A stretch of DNA of 64,000 nucleotides from Henricia sp. BOLD:AAB3569 (lineage: Eukaryota > Echinodermata > Asteroidea > Spinulosida > Echinasteridae): the NCBI GenBank assembly GCA_037783545.1, contig JBBELK010000491.1:1-64000 (forward strand), in the 5' to 3' direction. Position numbers and translations under genes: made by a program. The notes under the pieces were generated by a model. It ran no database searches. It saw nothing but the letters and a program-made list of their open reading frames with translations, and had not been told where the DNA came from. Each line of letters starts with the position of its first letter. Within the stretch, counting starts at the first letter, position 1. Of this stretch, positions 3,001-64,000 are shown in pieces.

Positions 3001-6000
3001 GTGTGTGCAGCCATTACATACTTTATTAACTCTTTCACTAGAAATGTCTGCTCCTGGCCACTGTCAACGGCTCGCCTGTACACATAAACAAACGTTGGCC
3101 TTTAATTAATTACATAACAGACCTTGCAAAACCCTGTAGTGAAAGAGCTAAGGACAAAAATTGTAAAACGAACCAATTGAAATGTTGTTTACATGAATGT
3201 TTTTCCAGTTGAATTTGAGAAGAGAATAGTCTTCCGTCCAACCCAGGACCCACTACCCAGAAATGCTGTGCAATATCTTGAAGCCATCTTTCAGCGAATT
3301 GCTTCAGCCATGGGATGTGACAAAGGTATTGTGACTGATTTGTTTGTTTAGTTTCATTCTGTTGATTCAGACCTTGTGTGTAAAACATATAAGACAGGCT
3401 GAACAAATTCCTCACAAAATCTTAAATTGTTCTCACTCAAACTTTTTTGTTTTTTCATCAAATCTGCACTTACCAATGATAGATGAGTCATTACAAAAAA
3501 AATAAAAAATCACTCACTGATCTCCTGTGGATCCCAGCTTACATAAAATCCTTAAAATACAAGCTGACAATATAAATTACTGAAAAATCACAAGTTCAAG
3601 GACAGAACAATTTGTGATTTATGAGTAATTTTTATTGTCAGTTATTTCTCTTTCTTTATAATTCTCCCTGGCATGTCCCTTAACTTCACCATCTCATACT
3701 TTGAACTGGTTATCAAAAAACAGTGCTGGTGAATATATAATTACAATCTGTTTGGAGATTATACGTTCATATAGACCCTTTGTACTGACAGCCATGTTAT
3801 AGATAGGACATGTTTCCTTACTTAAATGATATGACAGATCCACAAAGTGCCTACTCATGCATGATGCACAGTGGCAATGTGATTGTCCTCTTCATGTAAA
3901 GGGTCTATAGCATTGTCATGTTTTGTATGCATCTTTATTATTTCTTTCTTTTCATGGGTTTTTAATGTTAGAAAAGATGTTCATCAAGCATAGCAAGACG
4001 GCAATTAGTTCCTTCTTGGGAAGATGCAGCCCACAAAGAAAAGATCTCACTGAAGATTATTTGCTGAGAATATCTTCCCAGCAGGTATGAAGTTTCCATA
4101 AATTTGTATTGACTTTGGATAACCTTATTCATTTTAAACACAACATCTGGTATGGTACCTGATCACCATTGAAATGAAACAACCAAACTTGGGATGAGAG
4201 GAGAATCGTAAGGGCCTTATCGGGGTTCGAACCTGAGACCTCTGACTCACTAGGCAGATGCCCTACCAGCTGAGCTATAAGGCACAGTTGGTATACTCCC
4301 TCGGGTTTTAACAATAGACCTAATTCTTCTCTCGGTGTTGCATGGTGGCGCAACTGGGCAAAGTGGCTAGTTGATAATTTGTACTAACTGGCGAGACCTG
4401 TTACCTGATTTAAATACATGACCAGAGGCCGATTTCACAAAGCGCTAAGACGCGTCTTATGAAGGGTCACTCTTCTTGTCTTGGGACGTTGGTATGGGAA
4501 TTAGGACGCATTAAACTTGTCTTAACCTTTGTGAAATCGCCCCCTCTTTTACTTTATATTGTGTATAGCTAAGCAGCAACCAACGTGAAATGATGTCAGT
4601 CACTCATCCAGACAAAACAACTCCCTTGGCTTCTGAAGACCCTCCGAGCGATGACAATATTACGACTAGCAGCACCGTTAGTCAGTCACCGATAGCTTCT
4701 AGTGTCAAGACAGACCAAGTCAAGACTGAGTCGCTTTCAAAAGACAGTCCAGTTGAGTCAACCAGTAACAATCAGATCACGACCTCAGGCCCATGTCAAC
4801 CTAAACTGTAAGTCCATAATAAGGATTATTCACACTGAGCCTTTTCACGTGTAAATGTGACGCGCGTCGCTTTGAGAAAGTGGTGTTGAGTGAAATGACT
4901 CTCTGTGAATCACAAAAACAATTTCTGCCCAAGTTGATTCTGTGAGTTTTAGAGCGACATTTCACTTTATATTCCTTCTACAGCCCATTTTTTTAAAGCG
5001 ACATGCATTGCATTTGGGTCTGTTCCACAGTAATGGGGTACATTTAAAAATAAGTCAATAATTCCTTTCAGATGTCTTTAGTTTATCTAAGAATTAAAGA
5101 AATGTTCTCAGGAGATAACTTTTGCCACAACATACATTTTTGAAAAGCAAGTGTAAAAATTTTCCTATTACGCATGTAACGTGGACTGACAATTTTGTGA
5201 CATTTTTTTCCGTCTTTGTTACATGCGTAATAGGAAAATTTGTGCACGAGGTTTTCACATATGTATGTTGTAGGAGTATTTTTCTTACTCCTTGGTGAAA
5301 AAGTTATTTCCTCAGTTTAGTTTGATAATTTAAAGATAAAATTAAGACATTTGAAGTGAACTGGGACCTAAGATCTTGAATGTTACAGAAATGTACCCCA
5401 TTACTGTGGACAGACCCATTTACACGCGAAAAGACTCAGTGTGGATCCGATTCAGAGTTGTTATTTTGTATTCTGAGTGGGAATGACGAGTCACTTCTTA
5501 AAGACACTTTGGTTTGAGTTCTTTTACGTCATTCATCATCGTTTGACAGGGTTCAAGACGCATTATTAATTATTTGTAATTAGTGAGGAGTTTATCTCAA
5601 AACATTATGCAACTGTTTATTTATTTTTTTGACAGAATCTTGGTGTATCCACCACCCCCAAGCAAAGGAGGTGTTGTTATTCACAAAGTGGACTTGGAAT
5701 GTTTGGATGAGGGAGAGTTTCTCAATGATGTCATCATTGATTTCTATATCAAGTAAGTTTCATTTGTTGTTTTATTTCAGTGGTGATTAGGTACCATACC
5801 CAATATTGTGTTTGTTACAGTTGCGCTACCATGCAACACACAGAGAAAACCCGATAGCTCAGCTGGTAGAGCATCTGCCTAGTGTGTCAGAGGTCCTAGG
5901 GAAAACCGGAGGGAGTATACCACTGTGCCTCATAGCTCAGTTGGTAGAGCATCTGCCTGGTGTGTCAGAGGCCTTGGGGAAAACCGGAGGGAGTATACCA

Positions 6001-9000
6001 CTGTGCCTCATAGCTCAGCTGGTAGAGCATCTGCCTGGTGTGTCAGAGGTCCTAGGGAAAACCGGAGGGAGTATACCACTGTGCCTTATAGCTCAGCTGG
6101 TAGAGCATCTGCCTGGTGTGTCAGAGGTCCTAGGGAAAACCGGAGGGAGTATACCACTGTGCCTCATAGCTCAGTTGGTAGAGCATCTGCCTGGTGTGTC
6201 AAAGGTCTTGGGGAAAACTTGAGGGAGTATACCACTGTGCCTCATAGCTCAGTTGGTAGAGCATCTGCCTGGTGTGTCAGAGGCCTTGGGGAAAACCGGA
6301 GGGAGTATACCACTGTGCCTCATAGCTCAGCTGGTAGAGCATCTGCCCTGTGTGTCAGAGGTCTGGGGGAAAACTTGAGGGAGTATACCACTGTTCCTTA
6401 TAGCTCAGCTGGTAGAGCATCTGCCCTGTGTGTCAGAGGTCTTGGGGGAAACTTGAGGGAGTATACCACTGTTCCTTATAGCTCAGCTGGTAGAGCATCT
6501 GCCCTGTGTGTCAGAGGTCTGGGGGAAAACTTGAGGGAGTATACCACTGTTCCTTATAGCTCAGCTGGTAGAGCATCTGCCCTGTGTGTCAGAGGTCTTG
6601 GGGGAAACTTGAGGGAGTATACCACTGTGCCTTATAACTCGGCTGGTAGAGTATCTGCCCAGTAGGTCAGACATGTCACAGGTCTCGGGTTCAAATCCCG
6701 ATAAGGCCCATATGATTTTTCTCTCATCCCAAGTATGTTATGTGTTGACATATATGGTTCAGAAATGACTGCAGCACAAAAGTGTGCACCACTGTTGACT
6801 AACGCCCACAGACTAAATTGCCAGTTTGTTTTACTTCCTAAATCAAAGGCTCCATGGCCTTAATTTATGGTGGGTATGGCTAAAGTTGTAATTATTCTGA
6901 TTTACATGTACTTTGTTTGTCTTCAAAAAAGGTATTTATCAAGAGCTCCTTTTTATCCGTCACAGGTACCTTGTGAGTGAAGTCTTAAGTGAAGAAGATC
7001 GGCAGAAGACCTATGTGTTTAGTTCCTTCTTCTACGGTCGTTTGATGAGACGAGAGTACAATCATGACAAGTTCCCTGGGGACGTTCCCTCAAGTCGCAT
7101 GGAGAGACGGCATCAGAAAGTTTGGAAATGGACTCGCAATGTGGACATCTTTCAAAAGGATTTCATCATCGTACCTATTAATGAACAGTGAGTGTTGAGG
7201 CTTGAAAGTTTATTATTGTCAATTACACCGAGAAACAAAAGAAACGCACATTTTCATTTTAATTAAGCTTCCGGCTGCAGCACACATTTCACCACTCTCC
7301 AGCGATGTACTGACATTTAAGGAGGCGAAGTCGAAAGTGGCGAATTCTGAAATTGACTTTTTTTTCGTATGGCCATTAAATCTCACCCTTTTGGACAAAA
7401 CTGATGAAACTCACTCAGTTAAATTTGTCTGGCCTTGTTCACATGATGTGAAATGTTTGTTTAATTTTTGTCAAATGCCAATTCTTCTGGATTTTGAAAC
7501 AGATTCATTTTGAAAATGACTGATCTTGTGATTCCAAACACAGATGAAAACCCTCCTAGATTGTCAATTAACAACCTCAGAGATTTTCAAATGTCTGAAG
7601 TCGGCAAATCAACCTATTTTCTGGGTCTTTCCCAGAATTTGGGAAAATTGGCAGCTCTGTTTTTGTTTTCATTTAAGGTTGCAAACTTATGCAAATTAAA
7701 CTTTGCCTGTTTCTCTTTAGTTCTCACTGGTACGTGGCCATAATCTGCTATCCGGGTCTTGTTGGTGCGTCAGAAAACCTACACAGTCCTGATGTTAATG
7801 GAGAAAGTATGCGTAACTCGGGTAGGCCAAGTATTTCTTGATCAAATTTGGTTGCTTTACTTGTGTTTACATGACGTTTTAAAATCTTGCAGTGGTTAAC
7901 AACATTATAACCCTGGTCATTGGGCACAACTCCTTGGGGAGTTTGCAGCCTGACACAAGCACTCAAGGGGGTGGGGTGGGGGAGGGGAGGGGAGGGGAGG
8001 GTGGGGGGAGGTGGGGGTGCTGCAACCCTTGCAGGTACCCATTTACTCCTGGGTAGAAGGAGGCAACTTGCCCAAGAACACATGGGTGTGGCTGGGATTA
8101 AAACCTACAACAGTCATAATTGAACAAGATGTTGAGGTCAGTATGTGAAACCGCTTGGCCATGCCTGCAACTCTCCCCAATTAAATTCATACCCCTTGTC
8201 ACTCTTGTGGTCTTGCACATTATGTTGTAAAATTCAAAAGATTATCATTTTATTTTGTTTGCTTTATTTTTGTTATATAGCTACAACTTCCGAGTGTTCA
8301 GACAATGGGAAACGTTCTAATGATTCCGATGATGTCGGCGAGAATGACATGATTTCCAGTAAGAGAACGAAGCTTGCAGATGAGAGATTAAGTCTTACAA
8401 GTAACATGATGCATTTAGACGTATCTACACATGACCCTGATAAATCAAAACAACATACCCATGATGACCAGGACAGTCAAACTGAACAGACTCCACTCAA
8501 GACACAGGGTACAGCTCAAACTGAACAGACTCCACTCAAGACACAGGGTACAGCTCAAAGACGCAGAGTTCAAATAAAGAGGTTAGAGCGTTTACAGTTT
8601 TCTCAGGTTTTTATATAATTGTTACAAACACAAAACATGTTGGTCTTTTAAATTGAAGTTTGAATTTTGTATCATTTGCAAGATAAAACGTTTTACAGAT
8701 TTGTGGAATAAGAGTGTAACAAGGAAGAATGTTGGTTACTAATGGTAAACTAGCCTGAAGAAATTGTAGCTACTTGGATGCATCAATGCTTTAAAAAAAG
8801 AAGCCGCGTCACTACGTCATTTTGGGAGACTTCAACTTACGCTAAACATAGTTCTTCTATTTTTGGCCTAAACACATTGTCAACTACGAGAAACCCTTGT
8901 TTTCAGCACGTGCAATGACACAGTATGCTTTACATTTAACCTCTAAATGTCCACTATTTCTTCCTACAGACCCTGCATACTGGTGTTTGATTCCTTGGGA

Positions 9001-16740: not shown

Positions 16741-16975
16741 GTGTCATTTTTAAGAAATATTATTTTTGTTGCTAAACATATGGATAGAACAGTTGTGTTA
16801 GTCTGTAGATTAACAAAATAATTCAAAGGTAGCGCTTAAATTAAAAGACTGAGTAAAATAAGCATAAGCTAGTTTAGTCGTAGCAGCAAAGGTCTACTTC
16901 ATCAGATGCAATCATTGCAAGATGAGTGTGTTTCTTCCTCCATGGTGTAATTAAGTATAGTACTGGCGGTCAGAC

Positions 16976-17021
16976 CATAGAGTTGTATAAGCCGTAGCCT
17001 TACGGCTTATACAACTCTATG
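16976..17021. mobile_element. Perfect 46-bp palindromic insertion
   Basis: Two identical 21-bp arms (CATAGAGTTGTATAAGCCGT plus A, and the complement) around GCCT. Flanked by GGTCAGACC (16968-16976) and GGTCAG (17022-17027), the same target sequence that borders the next element. Confidence 0.85.
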
Positions 17022-17035
17022 GGTCAGGTCAGACC

Positions 17036-17304
17036 TAGCTAAGATAATCTCAGCTCTTTTTTTATCATTTTTCATTGGGATGTGGTCTTTTAGCAGTAGA
17101 GCTGAGAGAAGTTAAGAACATGAACCCGCCATCGCAAAACAAATGTGTCATTTTCTCACCGTGACACACTAATTCCCCCTAAAACTCACCCAAACATTTG
17201 TTTTGCGATGGCGGGTTCATGTTCTTAACTTCTCTCAGCTCTACTGCTAAAAGACCACATCCCAATGAAAAATGATAAAAAAAGAGCTGAGATTATCTTA
17301 GCTA
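17036..17304. mobile_element. Foldback transposon with perfect 111-bp arms and 9-bp target duplication
   Basis: The left arm 17036-17146 and right arm 17194-17304 are exact reverse complements (ends TAGCTAAGATAATCTCAGCT). The spacer is 47 bp. GGTCAGACC flanks both sides (17027-17035 and 17305-17313). It has no coding capacity, so it would need a transposase supplied elsewhere. Confidence 0.95.
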
Positions 17305-17870
17305 GGTCAGACCGGCATATGGAGCTAGCTATCATGGCTATAAACATGATTAAATGTTTCAGTTTATCTTCTACATTTATTTAGTTGTTTTTACGTATGA
17401 ATCCCTAAATTATTAAAATCCCGACAGTATTTGAAGGTCCAGTAAAACTGACCGTAATTTACTCATATTTTTGTACCATGGTCAGACAGATAGAGGGCGC
17501 TCGTACCGTAAGCATGATATCGATACGCCGCACTTGTCGCACAGGTATGTTTTTTTACACTAAATTGTGGTGTCAACAACATTACCTTAATTCTGCCGCA
17601 GCCTAATATAATATTAATAAGGTATTTGGGCATTAGGTCTTGACCCAGGGAGTAACTAGAATACAGGGTCCACGCGACAGCACCTTTTCAAAGTTGAACG
17701 GAGACGATGCATGTGATCGAAGAGACGGCGAGACTTGACGGCAGAGCCAGAGCAGAGGGAGCCGGAGATAAGCGCCCATGCATTGGTTACTTGGTACTGT
17801 GTGCGAAAGTATCACTTTGCCGTGACTTCGTCATAAAAAAATCTGGTATTTTTTTCGTAGGCCTAGACAT

Positions 17871-30722: not shown

Positions 30723-32003
30723 AAGGTAGTTGACGGCTCTGGTATCGATATGTGGACGTTCTACTCAGACCGCACTGCATTACTATACCACATGTAACAG
30801 TAACACTGACGTTCATATATATAGGCGGGATGTAGCACTTTTTAATGCCTCACACGGCAGCTGTTCTTCCACTCAATTTACTAAAAGGTCATGGAAATTT
30901 TGGAGTCAATTTCGTACCACGACGACAGTCAATTATTTTTTGCTCTAGATAATAAATATCACATGGTGTTTCATTTACTGTAGCCGTAACTCTGTATCTC
31001 GAACGAATATGCGTAATACGTTTGTGAGAATGCACTTTTTAGAAAGACGTGTACACGTACCCCCCGGTAGGCCTGTTTTGGGACTCCCTCATATCCCCTT
31101 CAGTCACAGGAATGTTTACATAAAAAAGAGTCTCTTTTAACAAATGTACACATGTGATCGAAGGGGATATTCCTATAGATCTTTGTCTTGCATTATCATA
31201 ATTGAAACTGATATATTTTTTACGGTTTTTTATGGACCTTTTTCATGTTTCTTTGTTCGTGATTTTATAACTCCAAATGTAGCTTTGAATGGAGGAAGGA
31301 AGTATATTTTATTAGTATTTCGTTGATGAATGCCAATTTGCGAACGGCTTCACGCATCATGTAACAGCCATAAAACCACAAAGACGAAAAAGTCATCAGG
31401 ATGAAACATCCAAACCGCGTGGCTTTATTATAGTTAAATTGAAGGCTTAGGGTCGAGTCACCAGGCGTCGCTTGTCTGTGCGTGCAGCGCGTCTGATTTG
31501 GTTTAATGAGAAACAGCCGAAATATACAGCCATAATAACACATGGTTTATTCATTAGTGCTGCGTAGAGTGCGGCGGATAAATTAAGCGGCTCCAAAAAG
31601 AGGATCATTTTAGGTTTAAATTTTAATGTCATGATGACTGTGAATGTTTTTCAGTAATTTGCAGATGGAAACAATTATTTTGCACGACTGAAAATAACAT
31701 GTTTGGTCGGGGCCGACCTTTATCGTGTAGGCAAAACGGCTCAATCTTTACTCCCCCATGCCCCAGTGGTACCCCCTATTTTAATGAATTTGGACGACAA
31801 GTACATGTAATATTTATGGTGCCAACGCACGGTGGCTAGGTCAAAGTTCAAGTGGTAACAAAGGACGCGGCAATAAAGCGACTGTTTGTACAGAGATGTA
31901 TCCTCGTAGTAACATGTTTGCAAAAGTGATCAGGACCTTTATCGGGTCGAGGGTCGTCTGCAGTAGCTACGCAAGCAAGTCGATAAATCGGCGAATACTG
32001 CAG

Positions 32004-32039
32004 TTGTACCATGGAATGTCTTCCTCCATGGTTGTACAT
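32004..32039. repeat. Short palindrome, recurrent type
   Basis: TTGTACCATGGAATGTCTTC, then CTCCATGGTTGTACA. The same CCATGG/CTTCC palindrome is at 41005-41042, and a half copy TTCTTCCTCCATGGTGTA is at 16932. Confidence 0.65.
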
Positions 32040-40698: not shown

Positions 40699-41004
40699 AA
40701 TATATATATATTTGTTTAGATAATTCTTTTAGGTCAAAAAACATTTTAATTAGGTCTAGAACCGTCTCTCTTAGGTCTGCATCTTTGGAAGCTTCGGGTA
40801 GAAAAATAAGGTGTCATTTTGAGTGACTCTTGCCGAAATTTCGGTGGTCCCCGGGGAGAGGCTTCCCGAAATGTCGCCCTATTGCCGCATCCAGAGTTCT
40901 TTAAATTATTATTCTTATTATTATTATTTATTATTTATTATTTATTCGGCCAATACATAAAAAAAACAAGCACACACAAATTACATGCAGTGAACAAAAG
41001 TTAG

Positions 41005-41042
41005 ATGTACCATGGAGGAAGTTCTTCCTCCATGGATGTACA
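41005..41042. repeat. Palindrome, recurrent type
   Basis: ATGTACCATGGAGGAAG and CTTCCTCCATGGATGTACAT mirror each other around TT. Related palindrome at 32004-32039. Confidence 0.8.
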
Positions 41043-44632: not shown

Positions 44633-44758
44633 CTTATATCTTTTAGCATAGAATCTATCAAGAGTGGCAATCAGTTTTTTGGGAGAGCCAGAGTTCGTTT
44701 CGTCTTCCAAAAACACCAAAAACCAAGACCATCGTTGGTCGAAAAGTACGCAACGATG

Positions 44759-47700
44759 ACCCAATAGATGTTATTTCTTGAATTAGACCCTGACTGCTCA
44801 CCCAGACAAAGAAATATTAAAGTTTGAAAATTTCTGATTTTGAGGAAAATTATAAATGTTTTTGGCCAAAATGTCAATTTTTCATAGGATTTGGCTTCGA
44901 GAACTACCGAAATAGGTTCAAAACGGGCTAAACTTTCGTTAGGAGTACTTTCTAAAAACATTTTACAAAAAGTCAATTTTTGTCCATTTTTGAAAAAAAT
45001 CACTGGACTAACCCCTTATGATTTTTGTCATTTTTGGCCAAATATTGTAGGAATCGGATTTTCCTCATGATGTCAGGAAATGTTGCTTAGACCCAATAGA
45101 TGTTATTTCTTGAATTAGACCCTGACTGCTCACCCAGACAAAGAAATATTAAAGTTTGAAAATTTCTGATTTTGAGGAAAATTATAAATGTTTTTGGCCA
45201 AAATGTTAATTTTTCATAAGATTTGGCTTCGAGAACTACCGAAATAGGTTCCAAACGGGCTAAACCCTCGTTAGGAGTACTTTCTGAGACATTTTACAAA
45301 AAGTCAATTTTTGGCCATTTTTGACAAAAATCGCTGGACTAACCCCTTATGATTTTTGTCATTTTTGGCCAAAAATTGTACGAATCAGATTTTCCTCATA
45401 ATGTCAGGAAATGTTGCTTAGACCCAATAGATGTTATTTCTTGAATTAGACCCTGACTGCTCACCCAGACAAAGAAATATTAAAGTTTGAAAATTTCTGA
45501 TTTTGAGGAAAATTATAAATGTTTTTGGCCAAAATGTCAATTTTTCATAGGATTTGGCTTCGAGAACTACCGAAATAGGTTCCAAACGGGCTAAACCCTC
45601 CTTAGGAGTACTTTCTGAGACATTTTACAAAAAGTCAATTTTTGGCCATTTTTGCAAAAAATCACTGGACTAACCCCTTATGATTTTTGTCATTTTTGGC
45701 CAAAAATTGTACGAATCAGATTTTCCTCATAATGTCAGGAAATGTTGCTTAGACCCAATAGATGTTATTTCTTGAATTAAACCCTGACTGCTCACCCAGA
45801 CAAAGAAATATTAAAGTTTGAAAATTTCTGATTTTGAGGAAAATTATAAATGTTTTTGGCCAAAATGTCAATTTTTCATACGATTTGGCTTCGAGAACTT
45901 CCGAAATAGGATCAAAACGGGCTAAACTTTCGTCAGGAGTACTTTCTGAGACATTTTACAAAAAGTCAATTTTTGGCCATTTTTGACAAAAATCGCTGGA
46001 CTAACCCCTTATGATTTTTGTCATTTTTGGCCAAAAATTGTACGAATCAGATTTTCCTCATAATGTCAGGAAATGTTGCTTAGACCCAATAGATGTTATT
46101 TCTTGAATTAGACCCTGACTGCTCACCCAGACAAAGAAATATTAAAGTTTGAAAATTTCTGATTTTGAGGAAAATTATAAATGTTTTTGGCCAAAATGTC
46201 AATTTTTCATAGGATTTGGCTTCGAGAACTACCGAAATAGGTTCCAAACGGGCTAAACCCTCCTTAGGAGTACTTTCTGAGACATTTTACAAAAAGTCAA
46301 TTTTTGGCCATTTTTGCAAAAAATCACTGGACTAACCCCTTATGATTTTTGTCATTTTTGGCCAAAAATTGTACGAATCAGATTTTCCTCATAACGTCAG
46401 GAAATGTTGCTTAGACCCAATAGATGTTATTTCTTGAATTAGACCCTGACTGCTCACCCAGACAAAGAAATATTAAAGTTTGAAAATTTCTGATTTTGAG
46501 GAAAATTATAAATGTTTTTGGCCAAAATGTCAATTTTTCATAGGATTTGGCTTCGAGAACTACCGAAATAGGTTCCAAAAGGGCTAAACCCTCGTTATGA
46601 GTACTTTCTGAAACATTTTACAAAAAGTAAATTTTTGTCTATTTTTGCAAAAAATCACTGGACTAACCCCTTATGATTTTTGTCATTTTTGGCCAAAAAT
46701 TGTACGAATCAGATTTTCCTCATCATGTCAGGAAATGTTGCTTAGACCCAATAGATGTTATTTCTTGAATTAGACCCTGACTGCTCACCCAGACAAAGAA
46801 ATATTAAAGTTTGAAAATTTCTGATTTTGAGGAAAATTATAAATGTTTTTGGCCAAAATGTCAATTTTTCATAGGATTTGGCTTCGAGAACTACCGAAAT
46901 AGGTTCAAAACGGGCTAAACTTTCGTTAGGAGTACTTTCTGAGACATTTTACAAAAAGTCAATTTTTGGCCATTTTTGACAAAAATCGCTGGACTAACCC
47001 CTTATGAATTTTGTCATTTTTGGCCAAAAATTGTACGAATCAGATTTTCCTCATGATGTCAGGAAATGTTGCTTAGACCCAATAGATGTTATTTCTTGAA
47101 TTAGACCCTGACTGCTCACCCAGACAAAGAAATATTAAAGTTTGAAAATTTCTGATTTTGAGGAAAATTATAAATGTTTTTGGCCAAAATGTCAATTTTT
47201 CATAGGATTTGGCTTCGAGAACTACCGAAATAGGTTCCAAACGGGCTAAACCCTCGTTATGAGTACTTTCTGAAACATTTTACAAAAAGTAAATTTTTGT
47301 CTATTTTTGCAAAAAATCACTGGACTAACCCCTTATGATTTTTGTCATTTTTGGCCAAAAATTGTACGAATCAGATTTTCCTCATCATGTCAGGAAATGT
47401 TGCTTAGACCCAATAGATGTTATTTCTTGAATTAGACCCTGACTGCTCACCCAGACAAAGAAATATTAAAGTTGGAAAATTTCTGATTTTGAGGAAAATT
47501 ATAAATGTTTTTGGCCAAAATGTCAATTTTTCATAGGATTTGGCTTCGAGAACTACCGAAATAGGTTCCAAACGGGCTAAACCCTCGTTAGGAGTACTTT
47601 CTGAGACATTTTACAAAAAGTCAATTTTTTGCCATTTTTGCAAAAAATCACTGGACTAACCCCTTATGATTTTTGTCATTTTTGGCCAAAAATTGTACGA

Positions 47701-50700
47701 ATCAGATTTTCCTCATAATGTCAGGAAATGTTGCTTAGACCCAATAGATGTTATTTCTTGAATTAGACCCTGACTGCTCACCCAGACAAAGAAATATTAA
47801 AGTTTGAAAATTTCTGATTTTGAGGAAAATTATAAATGTTTTTGGCCAAAATGTCAATTTTTCATAGGATTTGGCTTCGAGAACTACCGAAATAGGTTCC
47901 AAACGGGCTAAACCCTCGTTATGAGTACTTTCTGAAACATTTTACAAAAAGTAAATTTTTGTCTATTTTTGCAAAAAATCACTGGACTAACCCCTTATGA
48001 TTTTTGTCATTTTTGGCCAAAAATTGTACGAATCAGATTTTCCTCATCATGTCAGGAAATGTTGCTTAGACCCAATAGATGTTATTTCTTGAATTAGACC
48101 CTGACTGCTCACCCAGACAAAGAAATATTAAAGTTTGAAAATTTCTGATTTTGAGGAAAATTATAAATGTTTTTGGCCAAAATGTCAATTTTTCATAGGA
48201 TTTGGCTTCGAGAACTACCGAAATAGGTTCAAAACGGGCTAAACTTTCGTTAGGAGTACTTTCTGAGACATTTTACAAAAAGTCAATTTTTGGCCATTTT
48301 TGACAAAAATCGCTGGACTAACCCCTTATGATTTTTGTCATTTTTGGCCAAAAATTGTACGAATCAGATTTTCCTCATGATGTCAGGAAATGTTGCTTAG
48401 ACCCAATAGATGTTATTTCTTGAATTAAACCCTGACTGCTCACCCAGACAAAGAAATATTAAAGCTTGAAAATTTCTGATTTTGAGGAAAATTATAAATG
48501 TTTTTGGCCAAAATGTCAATTTTTCATAGGATTTGGCTTCGAGAACTACCGAAATAGGTTCCAAACGGGCTAAACCCTCGTTAGGAGTACTTTCTGAGAC
48601 ATTTTACAAAAAGTCAATTTTTGGCCATTTTTGCAAAAAATCACTGGACTAACCCCTTATGATTTTTGTCATTTTTGGCCAAAAATTGTACGAATCAGAT
48701 TTTCCTCATAATGTCAGGAAATGTTGCTTAGACCCAATAGATGTTATTTCTTGAATTAGACCCTGACTGCTCACCCAGACAAAGAAATATTAAAGTTTGA
48801 AAATTTCTGATTTTGAGGAAAATTATAAATGTTTTTGGCCAAAATGTCAATTTTTCATAGGATTTGGCTTCGAGAACTACCGAAATAGGTTCCAAACGGG
48901 CTAAACCCTCGTTATGAGTACTTTCTGAAACATTTTACAAAAAGTAAATTTGTCTATTTTTGCAAAAAATCACTGGACTAACCCCTTATGATTTTTGTCA
49001 TTTTTGGCCAAAAATTGTACGAATCAGATTTTCCTCATCATGTCAGGAAATGTTGCTTAGACCCAATAGATGTTATTTCTTGAATTAGACCCTGACTGCT
49101 CACCCAGACAAAGAAATATTAAAGTTTGAAAATTTCTGATTTTGAGGAAAATTTTAAATGTTTTTGGCCAAAATGTCAATTTTTCATAGGATTTGGCTTC
49201 GAGAACTACCGAAATAGGTTCAAAACGGGCTAAACTTTCGTTAGGAGTACTTTCTGAGACATTTTACAAAAAGTCAATTTTTGGCCATTTTTGACAAAAA
49301 TCGCTGGACTAACCCCTTATGATTTTTGTCATTTTTGGCCAAAAATTGTACGAATCAGATTTTCCTCATGATGTCAGGAAATGTTGCTTAGACCCAATAG
49401 ATGTTATTTCTTGAATTAAACCCTGACTGCTCACCCAGACAAAGAAATATTAAAGCTTGAAAATTTCTGATTTTGAGGAAAATTATAAATGTTTTTGGCC
49501 AAAATGTCAATTTTTCATAGGATTTGGCTTCGAGAACTACCGAAATAGGTTCCAAACGGGCTAAACCCTCGTTAGGAGTACTTTCTGAGACATTTTACAA
49601 AAAGTCAATTTTTGGCCATTTTTGCAAAAAATCACTGGACTAACCCCTTATGATTTTTGTCATTTTTGGCCAAAAATTGTACGAATCAGATTTTCCTCAT
49701 AACGTCAGGAAATGTTGCTTAGACCCAATAGATGTTATTTCTTGAATTAGACCCTGACTGCTCACCCAGACAAAGAAATATTAAAGTTTGAAAATTTCTG
49801 ATTTTGAGGAAAATTATAAATGTTTTTGGCCAAAATGTCAATTTTTCATAGGATTTGGCTTCGAGAACTACCGGAAATAGGTTCAAAACGGGCTAAACTT
49901 TCGTTAGGAGTACTTTCTGAGACATTTCACAAAAAGTCAATTTTTGGCCATTTTTGACAAAAATCGCTGGACTAACCCCTTATGATTTTTGTCATTTTTG
50001 GCCAAAAATTGTACGAATCAGATTTTCCTCATAATGTCAGGAAATGTTGCTTAGACCCAATAGATGTTATTTCTTGAATTAAACCCTGACTGCTCACCCA
50101 GACAAAGAAATATTAAAGTTTGAAAATTTCTGATTTTGAGGAAAATTATAAATGTTTTTGGCCAAAATGTCAATTTTTCATAGGATTTGGCTTCGAGAAC
50201 TACCGAAATAGGTTCCAAACGGGCTAAACTTTCGTTAGGAGTACTTTCTGAGACATTTTACAAAAAGTCAATTTTTGGCCATTTTTGCAAAAAATCACTG
50301 GACTAACCCCTTATGATTTTTGTCATTTTGGCCAAAATGTCAATTTTTCATAGGATTTGGCTTCGAGAACTACCGAAATAGGATCAAAACGGGCTAAACT
50401 TTCGTTAGGAGTACTTTCTGAGACATTTTACAAAAAGTCAATTTTTGGCCATTTTTGACAAAAATCGCTGGACTAACCCCTTATGATTTTTGTCATTTTT
50501 GGCCAAAAATTGTACGAATCAGATTTTCCTCATAATGTCAGGAAATGTTGCTTAGACCCAATAGATGTTATTTCTTGAATTAGACCCTGACTGCTCACCC
50601 AGACAAAGAAATATTAAAGTTTGAAAATTTCTGATTTTGAGGAAAATTATAAATGTTTTTGGCCAAAATGTCAATTTTTCATAGGATTTGGCTTCGAGAA

Positions 50701-53700
50701 CTACCGAAATAGGTTCCAAACGGGCTAAACCCTCGTTAGGAGTACTTTCTGAGACATTTTACAAAAAGTCAATTTTTGGCCATTTTTGCAAAAAATCACT
50801 GGACTAACCCCTTATGATTTTTGTCATTTTTGGCCAAAAATTGTACGAATCAGATTTTCCTCATAATGTCAGGAAATGTTGCTTAGACCCAATAGATGTT
50901 ATTTCTTGAATTAGACCCTGACTGCTCACCCAGACAAAGAAATATTAAAGTTTGAAAATTTCTGATTTTGAGGAAAATTATAAATGTTTTTGGCCAAAAT
51001 GTCAATTTTTCATAGGATTTGGCTTCGAGAACTACCGAAATAGGTTCCAAACGGGCTAAACCCTCGTTATGAGTACTTTCTGAAACATTTTACAAAAAGT
51101 AAATTTTTGTCTATTTTTGCAAAAAATCACTGGACTAACCCCTTATGATTTTTGTCATTTTTGGCCAAAAATTGTACGAATCAGATTTTCCTCATCATGT
51201 CAGGAAATGTTGCTTAGACCCAATAGATGTTATTTCTTGAATTAGACCCTGACTGCTCACCCAGACAAAGAAATATTAAAGTTTGAAAATTTCTGATTTT
51301 GAGGAAAATTATAAATGTTTTTGGCCAAAATGTCAATTTTTCATAGGATTTGGCTTCGAGAACTACCGAAATAGGTTCAAAACGGGCTAAACTTTCGTTA
51401 GGAGTACTTTCTGAGACATTTTACAAAAAGTCAATTTTTGGCCATTTTTGACAAAAATCGCTGGACTAACCCCTTATGATTTTTGTCATTTTTGGCCAAA
51501 AATTGTACGAATCAGATTTTCCTCATGATGTCAGGAAATGTTGCTTAGACCCAATAGATGTTATTTCTTGAATTAAACCCTGACTGCTCACCCAGACAAA
51601 GAAATATTAAAGCTTGAAAATTTCTGATTTTGAGGAAAATTATAAATGTTTTTGGCCAAAATGTCAATTTTTCATAGGATTTGGCTTCGAGAACTACCGA
51701 AATAGGTTCCAAACGGGCTAAACCCTCGTTAGGAGTACTTTCTGAGACATTTTACAAAAAGTCAATTTTTGGCCATTTTTGCAAAAAATCACTGGACTAA
51801 CCCCTTATGATTTTTGTCATTTTTGGCCAAAAATTGTACGAATCAGATTTTCCTCATAATGTCAGGAAATGTTGCTTAGACCCAATAGATGTTATTTCTT
51901 GAATTAGACCCTGACTGCTCACCCAGACAAAGAAATATTAAAGTTTGAAAATTTCTGATTTTGAGGAAAATTATAAATGTTTTTGGCCAAAATGTCAATT
52001 TTTCATAGGATTTGGCTTCGAGAACTACCGAAATAGGTTCCAAACGGGCTAAACCCTCGTTATGAGTACTTTCTGAAACATTTTACAAAAAGTAAATTTT
52101 TGTCTATTTTTGCAAAAAATCACTGGACTAACCCCTTATGATTTTTGTCATTTTTGGCCAAAAATTGTACGAATCAGATTTTCCTCATCATGTCAGGAAA
52201 TGTTGCTTAGACCCAATAGATGTTATTTCTTGAATTAGACCCTGACTGCTCACCCAGACAAAGAAATATTAAAGTTTGAAAATTTCTGATTTTGAGGAAA
52301 ATTTTAAATGTTTTTGGCCAAAATGTCAATTTTTCATAGGATTTGGCTTCGAGAACTACCGAAATAGGTTCAAAACGGGCTAAACTTTCGTTAGGAGTAC
52401 TTTCTGAGACATTTTACAAAAAGTCAATTTTTGGCCATTTTTGACAAAAATCGCTGGACTAACCCCTTATGATTTTTGTCATTTTTGGCCAAAAATTGTA
52501 CGAATCAGATTTTCCTCATGATGTCAGGAAATGTTGCTTAGACCCAATAGATGTTATTTCTTGAATTAAACCCTGACTGCTCACCCAGACAAAGAAATAT
52601 TAAAGCTTGAAAATTTCTGATTTTGAGGAAAATTATAAATGTTTTTGGCCAAAATGTCAATTTTTCATAGGATTTGGCTTAGAGAACTACCGAAATAGGT
52701 TCCAAACGGGCTAAACCCTCGTTAGGAGTACTTTCTGAGACATTTTACAAAAAGTCAATTTTTGGCCATTTTTGCAAAAAATCACTGGACTAACCCCTTA
52801 TGATTTTTGTCATTTTTGGCCAAAAATTGTACGAATCAGATTTTCCTCATAACGTCAGGAAATGTTGCTTAGACCCAATAGATGTTATTTCTTGAATTAG
52901 ACCCTGACTGCTCACCCAGACAAAGAAATATTAAAGTTTGAAAATTTCTGATTTTGAGGAAAATTATAAATGTTTTTGGCCAAAATGTCAATTTTTCATA
53001 GGATTTGGCTTCGAGAACTACCGAAATAGGTTCAAAACGGGCTAAACTTTCGTTAGGAGTACTTTCTGAGACATTTCACAAAAAGTCAATTTTTGGCCAT
53101 TTTTGACAAAAATCGCTGGACTAACCCCTTATGATTTTTGTCATTTTTGGCCAAAAATTGTACGAATCAGATTTTCCTCATAATGTCAGGAAATGTTGCT
53201 TAGACCCAATAGATGTTATTTCTTGAATTAAACCCTGACTGCTCACCCAGACAAAGAAATATTAAAGCTTGAAAATTTCTGATTTTGAGAAAAATTATAA
53301 ATGTTTTTGGCCAAAATGTCAATTTTTCATAGGATTTGGCTTCGAGAACTACCGAAATAGGTTCCAAACGGGCTAAACCCTCGTTAGGAGTACTTTCTGA
53401 GACATTTTACAAAAAGTCAATTTTTGGCCATTTTTGCAAAAAATCACTGGACTAACCCCTTATGATTTTTGTCATTTTTGGCCAAAAATTGTACGAATCA
53501 GATTTTCCTCATAATGTCAGGAAATGTTGCTTAGACCCAATAGATGTTATTTCTTGAATTAGACCCTGACTGCTCACCCAGACAAAGAAATATTAAAGTT
53601 GGAAAATTTCTGATTTTGAGGAAAATTATAAATGTTTTTGGCCAAAATGTCAATTTTTCATAGGATTTGGCTTCGAGAACTACCGAAATAGGTTCCAAAC

Positions 53701-56700
53701 GGGCTAAACCCTCGTTATGAGTACTTTCTGAAACATTTTACAAAAAGTAAATTTTTGTCTATTTTTGCAAAAAATCACTGGACTAACCCCTTATGATTTT
53801 TGTCATTTTTGGCCAAAAATTGTACGAATCAGATTTTCCTCATCATGTCAGGAAATGTTGCTTAGACCCAATAGATGTTATTTCTTGAATTAGACCCTGA
53901 CTGCTCACCCAGACAAAGAAATATTAAAGTTTGAAATTTCTGATTTTGAGGAAAATTTTAAATGTTTTTGGCCAAAATGTCAATTTTTCATAGGATTTGG
54001 CTTCGAGAACTACCGAAATAGGTTCAAAACGGGCTAAACTTTCGTTAGGAGTACTTTCTGAGACATTTTACAAAAAGTCAATTTTTGGCCATTTTTGACA
54101 AAAATCGCTGGACTAACCCCTTATGATTTTTGTCATTTTTGGCCAAAAATTGTACGAATCAGATTTTCCTCATGATGTCAGGAAATGTTGCTTAGACCCA
54201 ATAGATGTTATTTCTTGAATTAAACCCTGACTGCTCACCCAGACAAAGAAATATTAAAGCTTGAAAATTTCTGATTTTGAGGAAAATTATAAATGTTTTT
54301 GGCCAAAATGTCAATTTTTCATAGGATTTGGCTTCGAGAACTACCGAAATAGGTTCCAAACGGGCTAAACCCTCGTTAGGAGTACTTTCTGAGACATTTT
54401 ACAAAAAGTCAATTTTTGGCCATTTTTGCAAAAAATCACTGGACTAACCCCTTATGATTTTTGTCATTTTTGGCCAAAAATTGTACGAATCAGATTTTCC
54501 TCATAATGTCAGGAAATGTTGCTTAGACCCAATAGATGTTATTTCTTGAATTAGACCCTGACTGCTCACCCAGACAAAGAAATATTAAAGTTTGAAAATT
54601 TCTGATTTTGAGGAAAATTATAAATGTTTTTGGCCAAAATGTCAATTTTTCATAGGATTTGGCTTCGAGAACTACCGAAATAGGTTCCAAACGGGCTAAA
54701 CCCTCGTTATGAGTACTTTCTGAAACATTTTACAAAAGTAAATTTTTGTCTATTTTTGCAAAAAATCACTGGACTAACCCCTTATGATTTTTGTCATTTT
54801 TGGCCAAAAATTGTACGAATCAGATTTTCCTCATCATGTCAGGAAATGTTGCTTAGACCCAATAGATGTTATTTCTTGAATTAGACCCTGACTGCTCACC
54901 CAGACAAAGAAATATTAAAGTTTGAAAATTTCTGATTTTGAGGAAAATTTTAAATGTTTTTGGCCAAAATGTCAATTTTTCATAGGATTTGGCTTCGAGA
55001 ACTACCGAAATAGGTTCAAAACGGGCTAAACTTTCGTTAGGAGTACTTTCTGAGACATTTTACAAAAAGTCAATTTTTGGCCATTTTTGACAAAAATCGC
55101 TGGACTAACCCCTTATGATTTTTGTCATTTTTGGCCAAAAATTGTACGAATCAGATTTTCCTCATGATGTCAGGAAATGTTGCTTAGACCCAATAGATGT
55201 TATTTCTTGAATTAAACCCTGACTGCTCACCCAGACAAAGAAATATTAAAGCTTGAAAATTTCTGATTTTGAGGAAAATTATAAATGTTTTTGGCCAAAA
55301 TGTCAATTTTTCATAGGATTTGGCTTCGAGAACTACCGAAATAGGTTCCAAACGGGCTAAACCCTCGTTAGGAGTACTTTCTGAGACATTTTACAAAAAG
55401 TCAATTTTTGGCCATTTTTGCAAAAAATCACTGGACTAACCCCTTATGATTTTTGTCATTTTTGGCCAAAAATTGTACGAATCAGATTTTCCTCATAACG
55501 TCAGGAAATGTTGCTTAGACCCAATAGATGTTATTTCTTGAATTAGACCCTGACTGCTCACCCAGACAAAGAAATATTAAAGTTTGAAAATTTCTGATTT
55601 TGAGGAAAATTATAAATGTTTTTGGCCAAAATGTCAATTTTTCATAGGATTTGGCTTCGAGAACTACCGAAATAGGTTCAAAACGGGCTAAACTTTCGTT
55701 AGGAGTACTTTCTGAGACATTTCACAAAAAGTCAATTTTTGGCCATTTTTGACAAAAATCGCTGGACTAACCCCTTATGATTTTTGTCATTTTTGGCCAA
55801 AAATTGTACGAATCAGATTTTCCTCATAATGTCAGGAAATGTTGCTTAGACCCAATAGATGTTATTTCTTGAATTAAACCCTGACTGCTCACCCAGACAA
55901 AGAAATATTAAAGTTTGAAAATTTCTGATTTTGAGGAAAATTATAAATGTTTTTGGCCAAAATGTCAATTTTTCATAGGATTTGGCTTCGAGAACTACCG
56001 AAATAGGTTCCAAACGGGCTAAACTTTCGTTAGGAGTACTTTCTGAGACATTTTACAAAAAGTCAATTTTTGGCCATTTTTGCAAAAAATCACTGGACTA
56101 ACCCCTTATGATTTTTGTCATTTTTGGCCAAAATGTCAATTTTTCATAGGATTTGGCTTCGAGAACTACCGAAATAGGATCAAAACGGGCTAAACTTTCG
56201 TTAGGAGTACTTTCTGAGACATTTTACAAAAAGTCAATTTTTGGCCATTTTTGACAAAAATCGCTGGACTAACCCCTTATGATTTTTGTCATTTTTGGCC
56301 AAAAATTGTACGAATCAGATTTTCCTCATAATGTCAGGAAATGTTGCTTAGACCCAATAGATGTTATTTCTTGAATTAGACCCTGACTGCTCACCCAGAC
56401 AAAGAAATATTAAAGTTTGAAAATTTCTGATTTTGAGGAAAATTATAAATGTTTTTGGCCAAAATGTCAATTTTTCATAGGATTTGGCTTCGAGAACTAC
56501 CGAAATAGGTTCCAAACGGGCTAAACCCTCGTTAGGAGTACTTTCTGAGACATTTTACAAAAAGTCAATTTTTGGCCATTTTTGCAAAAAATCACTGGAC
56601 TAACCCCTTATGATTTTTGTCATTTTTGGCCAAAAATTGTACGAATCAGATTTTCCTCATAATGTCAGGAAATGTTGCTTAGACCCAATAGATGTTATTT

Positions 56701-59700
56701 CTTGAATTAGACCCTGACTGCTCACCCAGACAAAGAAATATTAAAGTTTGAAAATTTCTGATTTTGAGGAAAATTATAAATGTTTTTGGCCAAAATGTCA
56801 ATTTTTCATAGGATTTGGCTTCGAGAACTACCGAAATAGGTTCCAAACGGGCTAAACCCTCGTTATGAGTACTTTCTGAAACATTTTACAAAAAGTAAAT
56901 TTTTGTCTATTTTTGCAAAAAATCACTGGACTAACCCCTTATGATTTTTGTCATTTTTGGCCAAAAATTGTACGAATCAGATTTTCCTCATCATGTCAGG
57001 AAATGTTGCTTAGACCCAATAGATGTTATTTCTTGAATTAGACCCTGACTGCTCACCCAGACAAAGAAATATTAAAGTTTGAAAATTTCTGATTTTGAGG
57101 AAAATTATAAATGTTTTTGGCCAAAATGTCAATTTTTCATAGGATTTGGCTTCGAGAACTACCGAAATAGGTTCAAAACGGGCTAAACTTTCGTTAGGAG
57201 TACTTTCTGAGACATTTTACAAAAAGTCAATTTTTGGCCATTTTTGACAAAAATCGCTGGACTAACCCCTTATGATTTTTGTCATTTTTGGCCAAAAATT
57301 GTACGAATCAGATTTTCCTCATGATGTCAGGAAATGTTGCTTAGACCCAATAGATGTTATTTCTTGAATTAAACCCTGACTGCTCACCCAGACAAAGAAA
57401 TATTAAAGCTTGAAAATTTCTGATTTTGAGGAAAATTATAAATGTTTTTGGCCAAAATGTCAATTTTTCATAGGATTTGGCTTCGAGAACTACCGAAATA
57501 GGTTCCAAACGGGCTAAACCCTCGTTAGGAGTACTTTCTGAGACATTTTACAAAAAGTCAATTTTTGGCCATTTTTGCAAAAAATCACTGGACTAACCCC
57601 TTATGATTTTTGTCATTTTTGGCCAAAAATTGTACGAATCAGATTTTCCTCATAATGTCAGGAAATGTTGCTTAGACCCAATAGATGTTATTTCTTGAAT
57701 TAGACCCTGACTGCTCACCCAGACAAAGAAATATTAAAGTTTGAAAATTTCTGATTTTGAGGAAAATTATAAATGTTTTTGGCCAAAATGTCAATTTTTC
57801 ATAGGATTTGGCTTCGAGAACTACCGAAATAGGTTCCAAACGGGCTAAACCCTCGTTATGAGTACTTTCTGAAACATTTTACAAAAAGTAAATTTTTGTC
57901 TATTTTTGCAAAAAATCACTGGACTAACCCCTTATGATTTTTGTCATTTTTGGCCAAAAATTGTACGAATCAGATTTTCCTCATCATGTCAGGAAATGTT
58001 GCTTAGACCCAATAGATGTTATTTCTTGAATTAGACCCTGACTGCTCACCCAGACAAAGAAATATTAAAGTTTGAAAATTTCTGATTTTGAGGAAAATTT
58101 TAAATGTTTTTGGCCAAAATGTCAATTTTTCATAGGATTTGGCTTCGAGAACTACCGAAATAGGTTCAAAACGGGCTAAACTTTCGTTAGGAGTACTTTC
58201 TGAGACATTTTACAAAAAGTCAATTTTTGGCCATTTTTGACAAAAATCGCTGGACTAACCCCTTATGATTTTTGTCATTTTTGGCCAAAAATTGTACGAA
58301 TCAGATTTTCCTCATGATGTCAGGAAATGTTGCTTAGACCCAATAGATGTTATTTCTTGAATTAAACCCTGACTGCTCACCCAGACAAAGAAATATTAAA
58401 GCTTGAAAATTTCTGATTTTGAGGAAAATTATAAATGTTTTTGGCCAAAATGTCAATTTTTCATAGGATTTGGCTTCGAGAACTACCGAAATAGGTTCCA
58501 AACGGGCTAAACCCTCGTTAGGAGTACTTTCTGAGACATTTTACAAAAAGTCAATTTTTGGCCATTTTTGCAAAAAATCACTGGACTAACCCCTTATGAT
58601 TTTTGTCATTTTTGGCCAAAAATTGTACGAATCAGATTTTCCTCATAACGTCAGGAAATGTTGCTTAGACCCAATAGATGTTATTTCTTGAATTAGACCC
58701 TGACTGCTCACCCAGACAAAGAAATATTAAAGTTTGAAAATTTCTGATTTTGAGGAAAATTATAAATGTTTTTGGCCAAAATGTCAATTTTTCATAGGAT
58801 TTGGCTTCGAGAACTACCGAAATAGGTTCAAAACGGGCTAAACTTTCGTTAGGAGTACTTTCTGAGACATTTCACAAAAAGTCAATTTTTGGCCATTTTT
58901 GACAAAAATCGCTGGACTAACCCCTTATGATTTTTGTCATTTTTGGCCAAAAATTGTACGAATCAGATTTTCCTCATAATGTCAGGAAATGTTGCTTAGA
59001 CCCAATTGATGTTATTTCTTGAATTAAACCCTGACTGCTCACCCAGACAAAGAAATATTAAAGCTTGAAAATTTCTGATTTTGAGAAAAATTATAAATGT
59101 TTTTGGCCAAAATGTCAATTTTTCATAGGATTTGGCTTCGAGAACTACCGAAATAGGTTCCAAACGGGCTAAACCCTCGTTAGGAGTACTTTCTGAGACA
59201 TTTTACAAAAAGTCAATTTTTGGCCATTTTTGCAAAAAATCACTGGACTAACCCCTTATGATTTTTGTCATTTTTGGCCAAAAATTGTACGAATCAGATT
59301 TTCCTCATAATGTCAGGAAATGTTGCTTAGACCCAATAGATGTTATTTCTTGAATTAGACCCTGACTGCTCACCCAGACAAAGAAATATTAAAGTTGGAA
59401 AATTTCTGATTTTGAGGAAAATTATAAATGTTTTTGGCCAAAATGTCAATTTTTCATAGGATTTGGCTTCGAGAACTACCGAAATAGGTTCCAAACGGGC
59501 TAAACCCTCGTTATGAGTACTTTCTGAAACATTTTACAAAAAGTAAATTTTTGTCTATTTTTGCAAAAAATCACTGGACTAACCCCTTATGATTTTTGTC
59601 ATTTTTGGCCAAAAATTGTACGAATCAGATTTTCCTCATCATGTCAGGAAATGTTGCTTAGACCCAATAGATGTTATTTCTTGAATTAGACCCTGACTGC

Positions 59701-62700: not shown

Positions 62701-64000
62701 ATTTTTGGCCATTTTTGACAAAAATCGCTGGACTAACCCCTTATGAATTTTGTCATTTTTGGCCAAAAATTGTACGAATCAGATTTTCCTCATGATGTCA
62801 GGAAATGTTGCTTAGACCCAATAGATGTTATTTCTTGAATTAGACCCTGACTGCTCACCCAGACAAAGAAATATTAAAGTTTGAAAATTTCTGATTTTGA
62901 GGAAAATTATAAATGTTTTTGGCCAAAATGTCAATTTTTCATAGGATTTGGCTTCGAGAACTACCGAAATAGGTTCCAAACGGGCTAAACCCTCGTTATG
63001 AGTACTTTCTGAAACATTTTACAAAAAGTAAATTTTTGTCTATTTTTGCAAAAAATCACTGGACTAACCCCTTATGATTTTTGTCATTTTTGGCCAAAAA
63101 TTGTACGAATCAGATTTTCCTCATCATGTCAGGAAATGTTGCTTAGACCCAATAGATGTTATTTCTTGAATTAGACCCTGACTGCTCACCCAGACAAAGA
63201 AATATTAAAGTTTGAAAATTTCTGATTTTGAGGAAAATTATAAATGTTTTTGGCCAAAATGTCAATTTTTCATAGGATTTGGCTTCGAGAGCTACCGAAA
63301 TAGGTTCCAAACGGGCTAAACTTTCGTTAGGAGTACTTTCTGAGACATTTTACAAAAAGTCAATTTTTGGCCATTTTTGCAAAAAATCACTGGACTAACC
63401 CCTTATGATTTTTGTCATTTTTGGCCAAAATGTCAATTTTTCATAGGATTTGGCTTCGAGAACTACCGAAATAGGATCAAAACGGGCTAAACTTTCGTTA
63501 GGAGTACTTTCTGAGACATTTTACAAAAAGTCAATTTTTGGCCATTTTTGACAAAAATCGCTGGACTAACCCCTTATGATTTTTGTCATTTTTGGCCAAA
63601 AATTGTACGAATCAGATTTTCCTCATAATGTCAGGAAATGTTGCTTAGACCCAATAGATGTTATTTCTTGAATTAGACCCTGACTGCTCACCCAGACAAA
63701 GAAATATTAAAGTTTGAAAATTTCTGATTTTGAGGAAAATTATAAATGTTTTTGGCCAAAATGTCAATTTTTCATAGGATTTGGCTTCGAGAACTACCGA
63801 AATAGGTTCCAAACGGGCTAAACCCTCGTTAGGAGTACTTTCTGAGACATTTTACAAAAAGTCAATTTTTGGCCATTTTTGCAAAAAATCACTGGACGTC
63901 ATTTTTGGCCAAAAATTGTACGAATCAGATTTTCCTCATAATGTCAGGAAATGTTGCTTAGACCCAATAGATGTTATTTCTTGAATTAGACCCTGACTGC
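44759..64000 (+). repeat. Satellite array, 331-bp monomer, higher-order organised, open at window end
   Basis: The anchor ACCCAATAGATG recurs at 44759, 45091, 45422, 45753, 46084, 46415 and so on to 63962: 57 starts, nearly all 331 bp apart. Four intervals are 501 bp (from 50055, 55850, 60323 and 63147) and contain one extra shortened monomer of 170 bp. Monomers are AT-rich and fall into at least three variants, told apart by AAACTTTCGTTAGG with TTTGACAAAAATCGC, AAACCCTCGTTAGG with TTTGCAAAAAATCAC, and CCCTCGTTATGAG with CTGAAAC and TTTGTCTATTTTT. Each monomer contains the perfect palindrome ATTTTTGGCCAAAAAT. Long frames are absent apart from chance ones at both ends. The length is about two nucleosomal repeats. 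The array has no visible right end. Confidence 0.97.

Follow-up and report, generated by a model that had tools for sequence, protein, structure and literature searches.

A tip-to-tip hairpin beside a deleted foldback element in a Henricia genome, probably the repaired excision scar of a P-like transposon

The locus

The window, which is the whole 64,000-nucleotide stretch analyzed here (C491:1-64000 within a searched genome of 740.7 Mb in 2104 contigs), contains frames with matches to the headcase and frizzled families of proteins, ten tandem 78-bp units at 5854-6659 that resemble tRNA-like sequence, tRNA matches at 4212-4284 and 6628-6709, and a long satellite array at 44758-63601 with a 331-bp unit (about 170-bp sub-repeat). 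Two foldbacks lie side by side between 16968 and 17313. Their parts, with the readings developed below and the evidence for each, are as follows.

16968..16975, + strand: GGTCAGAC, candidate left 8-bp target duplication of a departed P-like element (8-bp duplications at sister scars).
16976..17021, no strand: 46-bp hairpin CATAG...CTATG, 21 nt of one transposon tip and 25 nt of the other, read as a probable excision scar (468 arm matches genome-wide, more than there are scars; identical 46-bp junction at L089, there with a different duplication, GTCCTTAT).
17022..17026, + strand: GGTCA, partial repeat of the target word, possibly a fill-in over-run at the right-hand duplication (sequence; putative cause).
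17027..17035, + strand: GGTCAGACC, putative right-hand duplication of the P-like element and, at the same time, left 9-bp duplication of the 269-bp element (sequence and family-wide duplications).
17036..17304, no strand: 269-bp foldback TAGCTA...TAGCTA, deletion derivative of a 708-bp palindromic family (genome copies compared).
17305..17313, + strand: right 9-bp duplication GGTCAGACC of the 269-bp element (sequence and family-wide duplications).

The arms of the 269-bp element (17036-17146 and 17194-17304) are identical along 111 bp, with zero mismatches, and the target word that flanks it as a 9-bp duplication occurs at 16968-16976, 17027-17035, and 17305-17313 and nowhere else on either strand of the 64 kb. 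The perfect arms, the 9-bp duplication, and the three copies of one target word had been reported in a preliminary description of this locus and are borne out here; element and duplication are repeated on a second contig, C821. The smaller feature had been described as a 46-bp perfect palindrome bordered by the same word. Its arms are indeed perfect (22 nt each, 16975-16996 and 17001-17022), but they are separated by a 4-nt core, and the feature is therefore a hairpin and not one unbroken palindrome. The bordering words are present as well, but the duplication belonging to the hairpin is taken to be 8 bp long (GGTCAGAC, 16968-16975), and because five extra bases, GGTCA, stand between the hairpin and the next full target word, its 8-bp flanks match directly at only 6 of 8 positions. 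As a single strand, 16968-17313 folds more stably than every one of 100 shuffles, at 36 s.d. under their mean. Just left of the small hairpin, positions 16934-16944 hold a one-armed CTTCCTCCATG tip without a clear duplication.

Both foldbacks are present, letter for letter, on the window contig and on C821. Over the long stretches compared, C821 is 99.7 to 99.8% identical to the window, with 18 single-base differences in about 19 kb, and it is probably the window's other haplotype. An assembly artefact, which the preliminary description had named as a possible source of the perfect symmetry, can be given almost no credence: no support for it was found, the same letters stand on C821, and sister copies of both features occur at many unrelated places.

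The 269-bp element and its family

The 269-bp element is an internally deleted member of a repetitive family with ends TAGCTA...TAGCTA (also written TAGCTAAG...). It is not single-copy but belongs to a dispersed family, of which 35 two-ended copies were measured, and with no coding frame of its own it agrees with its initial description as a non-autonomous element. The family search, in which the best 40 of 1275 first-look candidates were scored, reported 122 matches, a figure that is not a copy number because both strands of the palindrome are counted and 40 of the 1275 candidates were scored. Around these matches, 39 loci were extracted, two being the window's own copy and that on C821, together with four longer stretches for loci that had shown a single end. 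The 35 measured copies are the 39 loci minus L002 (the window itself) and L006, L008, L011, and L014 (one end only), plus L040, which completes L006. Target duplications are exact at 9 bp in 26 of these copies, 8 bp long in 1, 5 bp long in 3 (one locus), and absent from 5; with likely allelic repeats removed in a tally based on flank comparison, an exact 9-bp duplication is found at 22 of 29 loci.

The TAGCTA boundary is common to the family copies, and comparison among them shows how the window copy arose. At 708 bp, L024 has an 8-base centre between two perfect arms of 350 bp each, and many other copies retain one arm nearly whole while the other is partly lost. In the window copy, 158 to 163 nt from one arm meet 111 nt from the opposite arm, and the two pieces overlap by 5 nt (ACATT) where they meet; its perfect arms are thus the remainder of a longer palindrome. 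The perfection itself may reflect gene conversion from arm to arm or the youth of the copies. Changes private to one copy and yet in both arms occur in 3 of the 30 copies compared (L003, L032, and L040), the arms of the window copy show no differences, and the two 350-bp arms of L024 are identical, so that youth and conversion may each contribute. A frame scan of L040, a 2357-bp relative, showed no frame over 119 amino acids inside it, and for the single arms of the 708-bp family at L041 to L043, the other end was not found within about 10 kb.

The assignment of this family can be narrowed. Its duplication had been placed near those of hAT and Mutator elements, and of these the Mutator type is favoured. 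The 9-bp length in 26 of 35 copies, with 8 bp in only 1 of 35, accords with the 8- to 10-bp, mostly 9-bp, duplications of Mutator elements and MULEs and led us to reject hAT, and the inverted repeats are longer than 100 bp, as in Mutator elements and MULEs (111 bp in the window copy and up to 350 bp in L024). On this sequence anatomy, the family resembles Mutator/foldback elements in duplication length and long arms. Tm1, a Mutator/Foldback element of root-knot nematodes, likewise has 9-bp duplications, long foldback-like inverted repeats, and MITE-like members, but its arms are described, in the sections cited, as largely tandem repeats of 13 to 15 bp that are 93% alike on average, whereas the arms here reach 350 bp and are identical in one copy (PMC3169594). 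Muta1, a MULE of Aedes aegypti, shares the 8- to 9-bp duplications and has 145-bp inverted repeats; it differs in having a transposase, and according to the cited part of that report, it excises about 90% precisely in yeast when the duplications are present, whereas the 269-bp family is known from transposase-less copies only (PMC5225508).

Two further observations concern the long palindromes. Their centre (L008, L022, L024, L027, L033, and L037) has the form ATGCGCAT-TGGTTACCAGACGTGATC...-ATGCGCAT and varies among copies. L016 and L027, two members of the 708-bp family, seemingly occupy positions that differ by one base within copies of a shared dispersed repeat (TAGTTTTAG / AGTTTTAGA); on the other side of L016, the matching duplication is absent.

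Copies and larger relatives of the small hairpin

A 20-nt arm of the small hairpin matches the genome at 468 places with up to 1 mismatch, and a reversed-pattern control gives 0; since one hairpin can match twice, larger elements match too, and haplotype copies count apart, scars are fewer than 468. Among the matches listed, 48 sites with one exact 20-nt arm each were read, a selection that misses scars with two short arms. At 30 of the 48 sites, there is a two-armed hairpin whose 8-bp flanks match at 7 to 8 of 8 positions (29 loci and L067, a duplicate of L066), and L069 and L073 are two-armed with flanks matching at 6 of 8. At L047 (by eye), L053, and L080, an intact 8-bp duplication encloses a hairpin whose second arm is rearranged, mutated, or nearly absent, while L051 and L078 are one-armed with flanks matching at 7 of 8. 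Five of the 48 sites (L065, L072, L076, L081, and L084) are one-armed, and a duplication was looked for there and none found. At the remaining six (L052, L054, L057, L082, L090, and L093), the arm runs on into a larger element.

These larger elements are candidates for the parent of the hairpin. The parent's ends read CATAGAGTTGTATAAGCCGTAAGGC... (also written CATAGAGTTG...), and the end followed by TAGAG.GCGC is found at 64 places in the genome with up to 1 mismatch. Five larger elements of about 1.4 to 3.4 kb were checked at both ends: L054, L107, L108, and L109 have 8-bp duplications, identical at L107 and L108, and L106 has none. When 9 frames, taken from larger elements or from stretches beside single ends, were searched against Pfam, none matched above a cut-off. 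End-pattern searches of bacterial and archaeal contigs and of viral contigs gave 0 matches each. The 36 target duplications of this family lean toward GT....AC, with G1 in 25, T2 in 22, A7 in 15, and C8 in 22, and contain 53 of 144 possible palindromic pairs, whereas 2000 shuffles average 34.7 and reach 49 at most.

The two foldbacks are not members of one family, an assignment we rejected on the grounds that their ends (TAGCTA... versus CATAGAG...), their duplication lengths (9 versus 8 bp), and their relatives elsewhere all differ. Successive insertions of related elements at one target, as first proposed, are thus upheld as to the same word being used twice and set aside as to relatedness; their recency, also proposed at first, would be no more than a possibility, with both features present on both contigs.

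Arm lengths and junctions

The junctions were compared in 30 scars (29 loci and the window; L067, L069, and L073 were left out). Two-armed scars keep 8 to 25 nt of tip on each side, and in none of the 30 does an arm extend beyond base 25 into TAGAG.GCGC, the element sequence that follows, a ceiling for which a script counted arm length to 25 only and positions beyond were judged by reading the sequences. It could be proposed that such hairpins are products of interrupted gap repair, or of ordinary in-place internal deletion of full-length copies, with no end joining of tips; larger elements with the same ends do exist, and internal deletion shaped the 269-bp element of the other family. Such a process should leave arms of many lengths, however, and with 0 of 30 two-armed scars keeping more than 25 nt of either end, we regard this origin as very improbable.

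The joins themselves are varied, with 16 different junctions among the 30 scars. Two tips alone explain 27 of the 30, with a mean apparent overlap of 1.48 nt compared with 0.51 nt for random joining, and under a null of uniform trimming, none of 5000 simulated means reaches the observed value; one of the three remaining junctions, L059, has a changed base in the arm. The commonest products, 48 and 40 bp with four scars each, match what would be expected if two 25-nt tails ending in GGC annealed, at GC for the 48-bp product and at GGC/GCC for the 40-bp one. An overlap of 2 to 3 nt is found in 12 of the 22 recurring scars versus 1 of the 8 unique ones. Where the second tip is reduced to 2 to 3 bases (L080) or is absent (L078 and L051), the duplication still matches at 7 to 8 of 8 positions.

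Two loci on one contig are informative in this respect. L069 (C43:2807850-2808200) and L070 (C43:2866500-2866850) have homologous flanks and the same target, GTGCACAC, with different scars, and may be duplicates or misplaced alleles. L069 also holds a duplicate of its left flank together with the tip, which resembles the templated insertions known from break repair.

A different account of these copies is that the hairpin is a micro-MITE of 29 to 48 bp, itself mobile and making 8-bp duplications, in which case the window would record two insertions. Many dispersed copies with matching 8-bp duplications would fit such an element, as would the recurrence of 8 junction classes at 22 of the 30 scars. 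Nevertheless, we consider it unlikely, given the 16 junction types, the arms that end at 25 nt, the duplications that persist where the second tip is short or absent, the templated flank copy in L069, and the concentration of 2- to 3-nt overlaps in recurring scars; moreover, the smallest two-armed form, 29 bp, would presumably offer little room for two transposase sites.

A probable excision scar of a P-like element

The reading that we prefer, and hold to be probable, is that the 46-bp hairpin is the repaired excision scar of a P-like element that was cut about 25 nt inside its ends; the insertion assumed at first would accordingly give way to a departure. This preference stems from the 25-nt arm ceiling, the varied and microhomology-rich junctions, L069 and L070 with the templated copy, and the duplications kept where the second tip is short or absent. 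In such a history, a P-like transposon with CATAGAGTTGTATAAGCCGTAAGGC... ends would have entered at GGTCAGAC and produced an 8-bp duplication. Its transposase, of a class and cut position that we infer, would have cut one strand at the element edge and its partner about 25 nt farther in, so that 25 nt of single-stranded transposon tip stayed on both broken chromosome ends. These identical and non-complementary tips would then have been trimmed and end-joined, leaving a tip-tip hairpin between the duplications, and GGTCA could stem from fill-in synthesis that displaced a strand and ran into the duplication. Either earlier or later than this excision, the unrelated, internally deleted 269-bp element would have entered the same word in the same register. 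The three target words would thus be the departed element's left copy, its right copy shared with the 269-bp element, and the latter's right copy.

Several observations count against an excision scar. The 8 recurring junction classes are what mobile-element subfamilies might also give, and the window's own junction recurs at L089 with an overlap of 0. No full 25+25 blunt join is found among the 30 scars, and L069 and L070 could carry one and the same scar, changed in one of them once the locus had been duplicated. The 269-bp element has its 9-bp duplication starting at the same base as the 8-bp one, no duplication was found at the 5 of 48 one-armed sites noted above, and the 9 frames gave no Pfam match.

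Comparison with P elements and their excision

The transposase of the P superfamily combines THAP with a split RNase H and a GTP-binding insertion, and the P-like mechanism is understood mainly from work on flies. Cuts by the P transposase are staggered by 17 nt (PMC7776569). In fly P excision junctions, the order is duplication-tip-tip-duplication, the tails measure 17 nt, and both short microhomologies and templated insertions occur (Table 1 of PMC2895639). The small hairpins share with these footprints the 8-bp duplication on both sides, the tip-to-tip arrangement, tips that begin with CAT, joins at microhomology, and templated insertions, as far as the cited portion of that work describes them; they differ in that the Drosophila tails are 17 nt long whereas the ceiling here is 25 nt, from which anatomy the cut would be deduced, and in that the Drosophila footprints come from experiments whereas here many natural scars lie in one genome and are known without their transposase (PMC2895639).

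The target also fits the P superfamily. The duplication is 8 bp for P and has a mode of 7 bp for 1360 in the material cited (PMC3276498), and Galileo has a duplication consensus of GTANTAC or GTATTAC according to the cited passages (PMC4168063). The parent element has 8 bp at 30 of 48 sites and at 4 of 5 larger elements, and its 36 duplications present a weakly palindromic GT...AC target.

An 8-bp duplication, such as the parent element makes, is equally that of hAT elements. The footprints known for hAT elements generally consist of a few bases, with no transposon tips, whereas the small hairpins retain tips of 8 to 25 nt on both sides. Because the support is anatomical and comes without a transposase, we describe the parent element as P-like by its sequence anatomy and do not file it as a P element. 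To our knowledge, 25 nt would be the longest stagger of any cut-and-paste transposon.

A second scar family and a possible archive of excisions

A second set of scar-like hairpins, found via its tip word CATGGAGGAAG, has 7-bp duplications.

Window 41004..41041, no strand: scar-like hairpin GATGTAC-CATGGAGGAAGTTCTTCCTCCATG-GATGTAC, 7-bp duplication (tip word, script).
Window 32003..32037, no strand: scar-like hairpin GTTGTAC-CATGGAATGTCTTCCTCCATG-GTTGTAC, 7-bp duplication (tip word, script).
L001:2280-2315: second-family hairpin with tip CATGGAGGAAG and duplication GTAACAC (script).
L039:2171-2210: second-family hairpin with tip CATGGAGGAAG and duplication GTCCAAC (script).
L069: candidate second-family scar with a truncated second tip and duplication GGTGCAC (by eye).

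Elsewhere in the loci, CATGGAGGAAG words lack such a 7-bp duplication or are part of other sequences. A hairpin script, run with flanks matching at 7 to 8 of 8 over 246,795 bases (loci and window), returned mostly simple-repeat, satellite, or probably chance matches, plus the centre of the 708-bp family. This second family is like Galileo and 1360, as those are characterized in the cited portions of the reports, in its 7-bp duplications of the form G....AC, with a GT start in 3 of 5 as read (PMC4168063, PMC3276498); it differs from them in its ends, CATGGAGGAAG..., and in being known from scars, without a full element or transposase. At L069, the apparent second-family scar sits on the duplication of the first scar, and together with the window, this suggests that a duplication was re-used as a target at two loci.

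Taken together, it seems somewhat better than an even proposition that this genome is a natural archive of P-type excision scars, probably hundreds of them and from at least two families (8-bp and 7-bp duplications), that the enzyme of the 8-bp family cuts about 25 nt inside the ends, and that the scars record, over evolutionary time, the repair of germline breaks with long non-complementary 3' tails. Tiny dispersed palindromes of this kind are easily taken for artefacts or for miniature transposons. Should they be exit scars, a genome sequence by itself would reveal where an unstudied transposase cuts, how many departures it has made, and which repair pathway acted in many natural cases. A P-like mechanism would then also be shown to leave behind an extensive, visible residue in an animal other than the fly, and with a longer stagger. 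Footprints from fly experiments are known; what would be new here is that the scars are natural and numerous, with a longer inferred stagger. Judged by titles and abstract openings of the papers listed, the literature offered no description of genome-wide natural P-type scars, which is not proof of absence.

One further difference between the two contigs lies close to the locus. Opposite window positions 17691-17746, C821 has about 655 extra bases, with about 55 bases of adjoining window sequence at both ends of the alignment break, and these bases include a second-family scar with the duplication GTAACAC.
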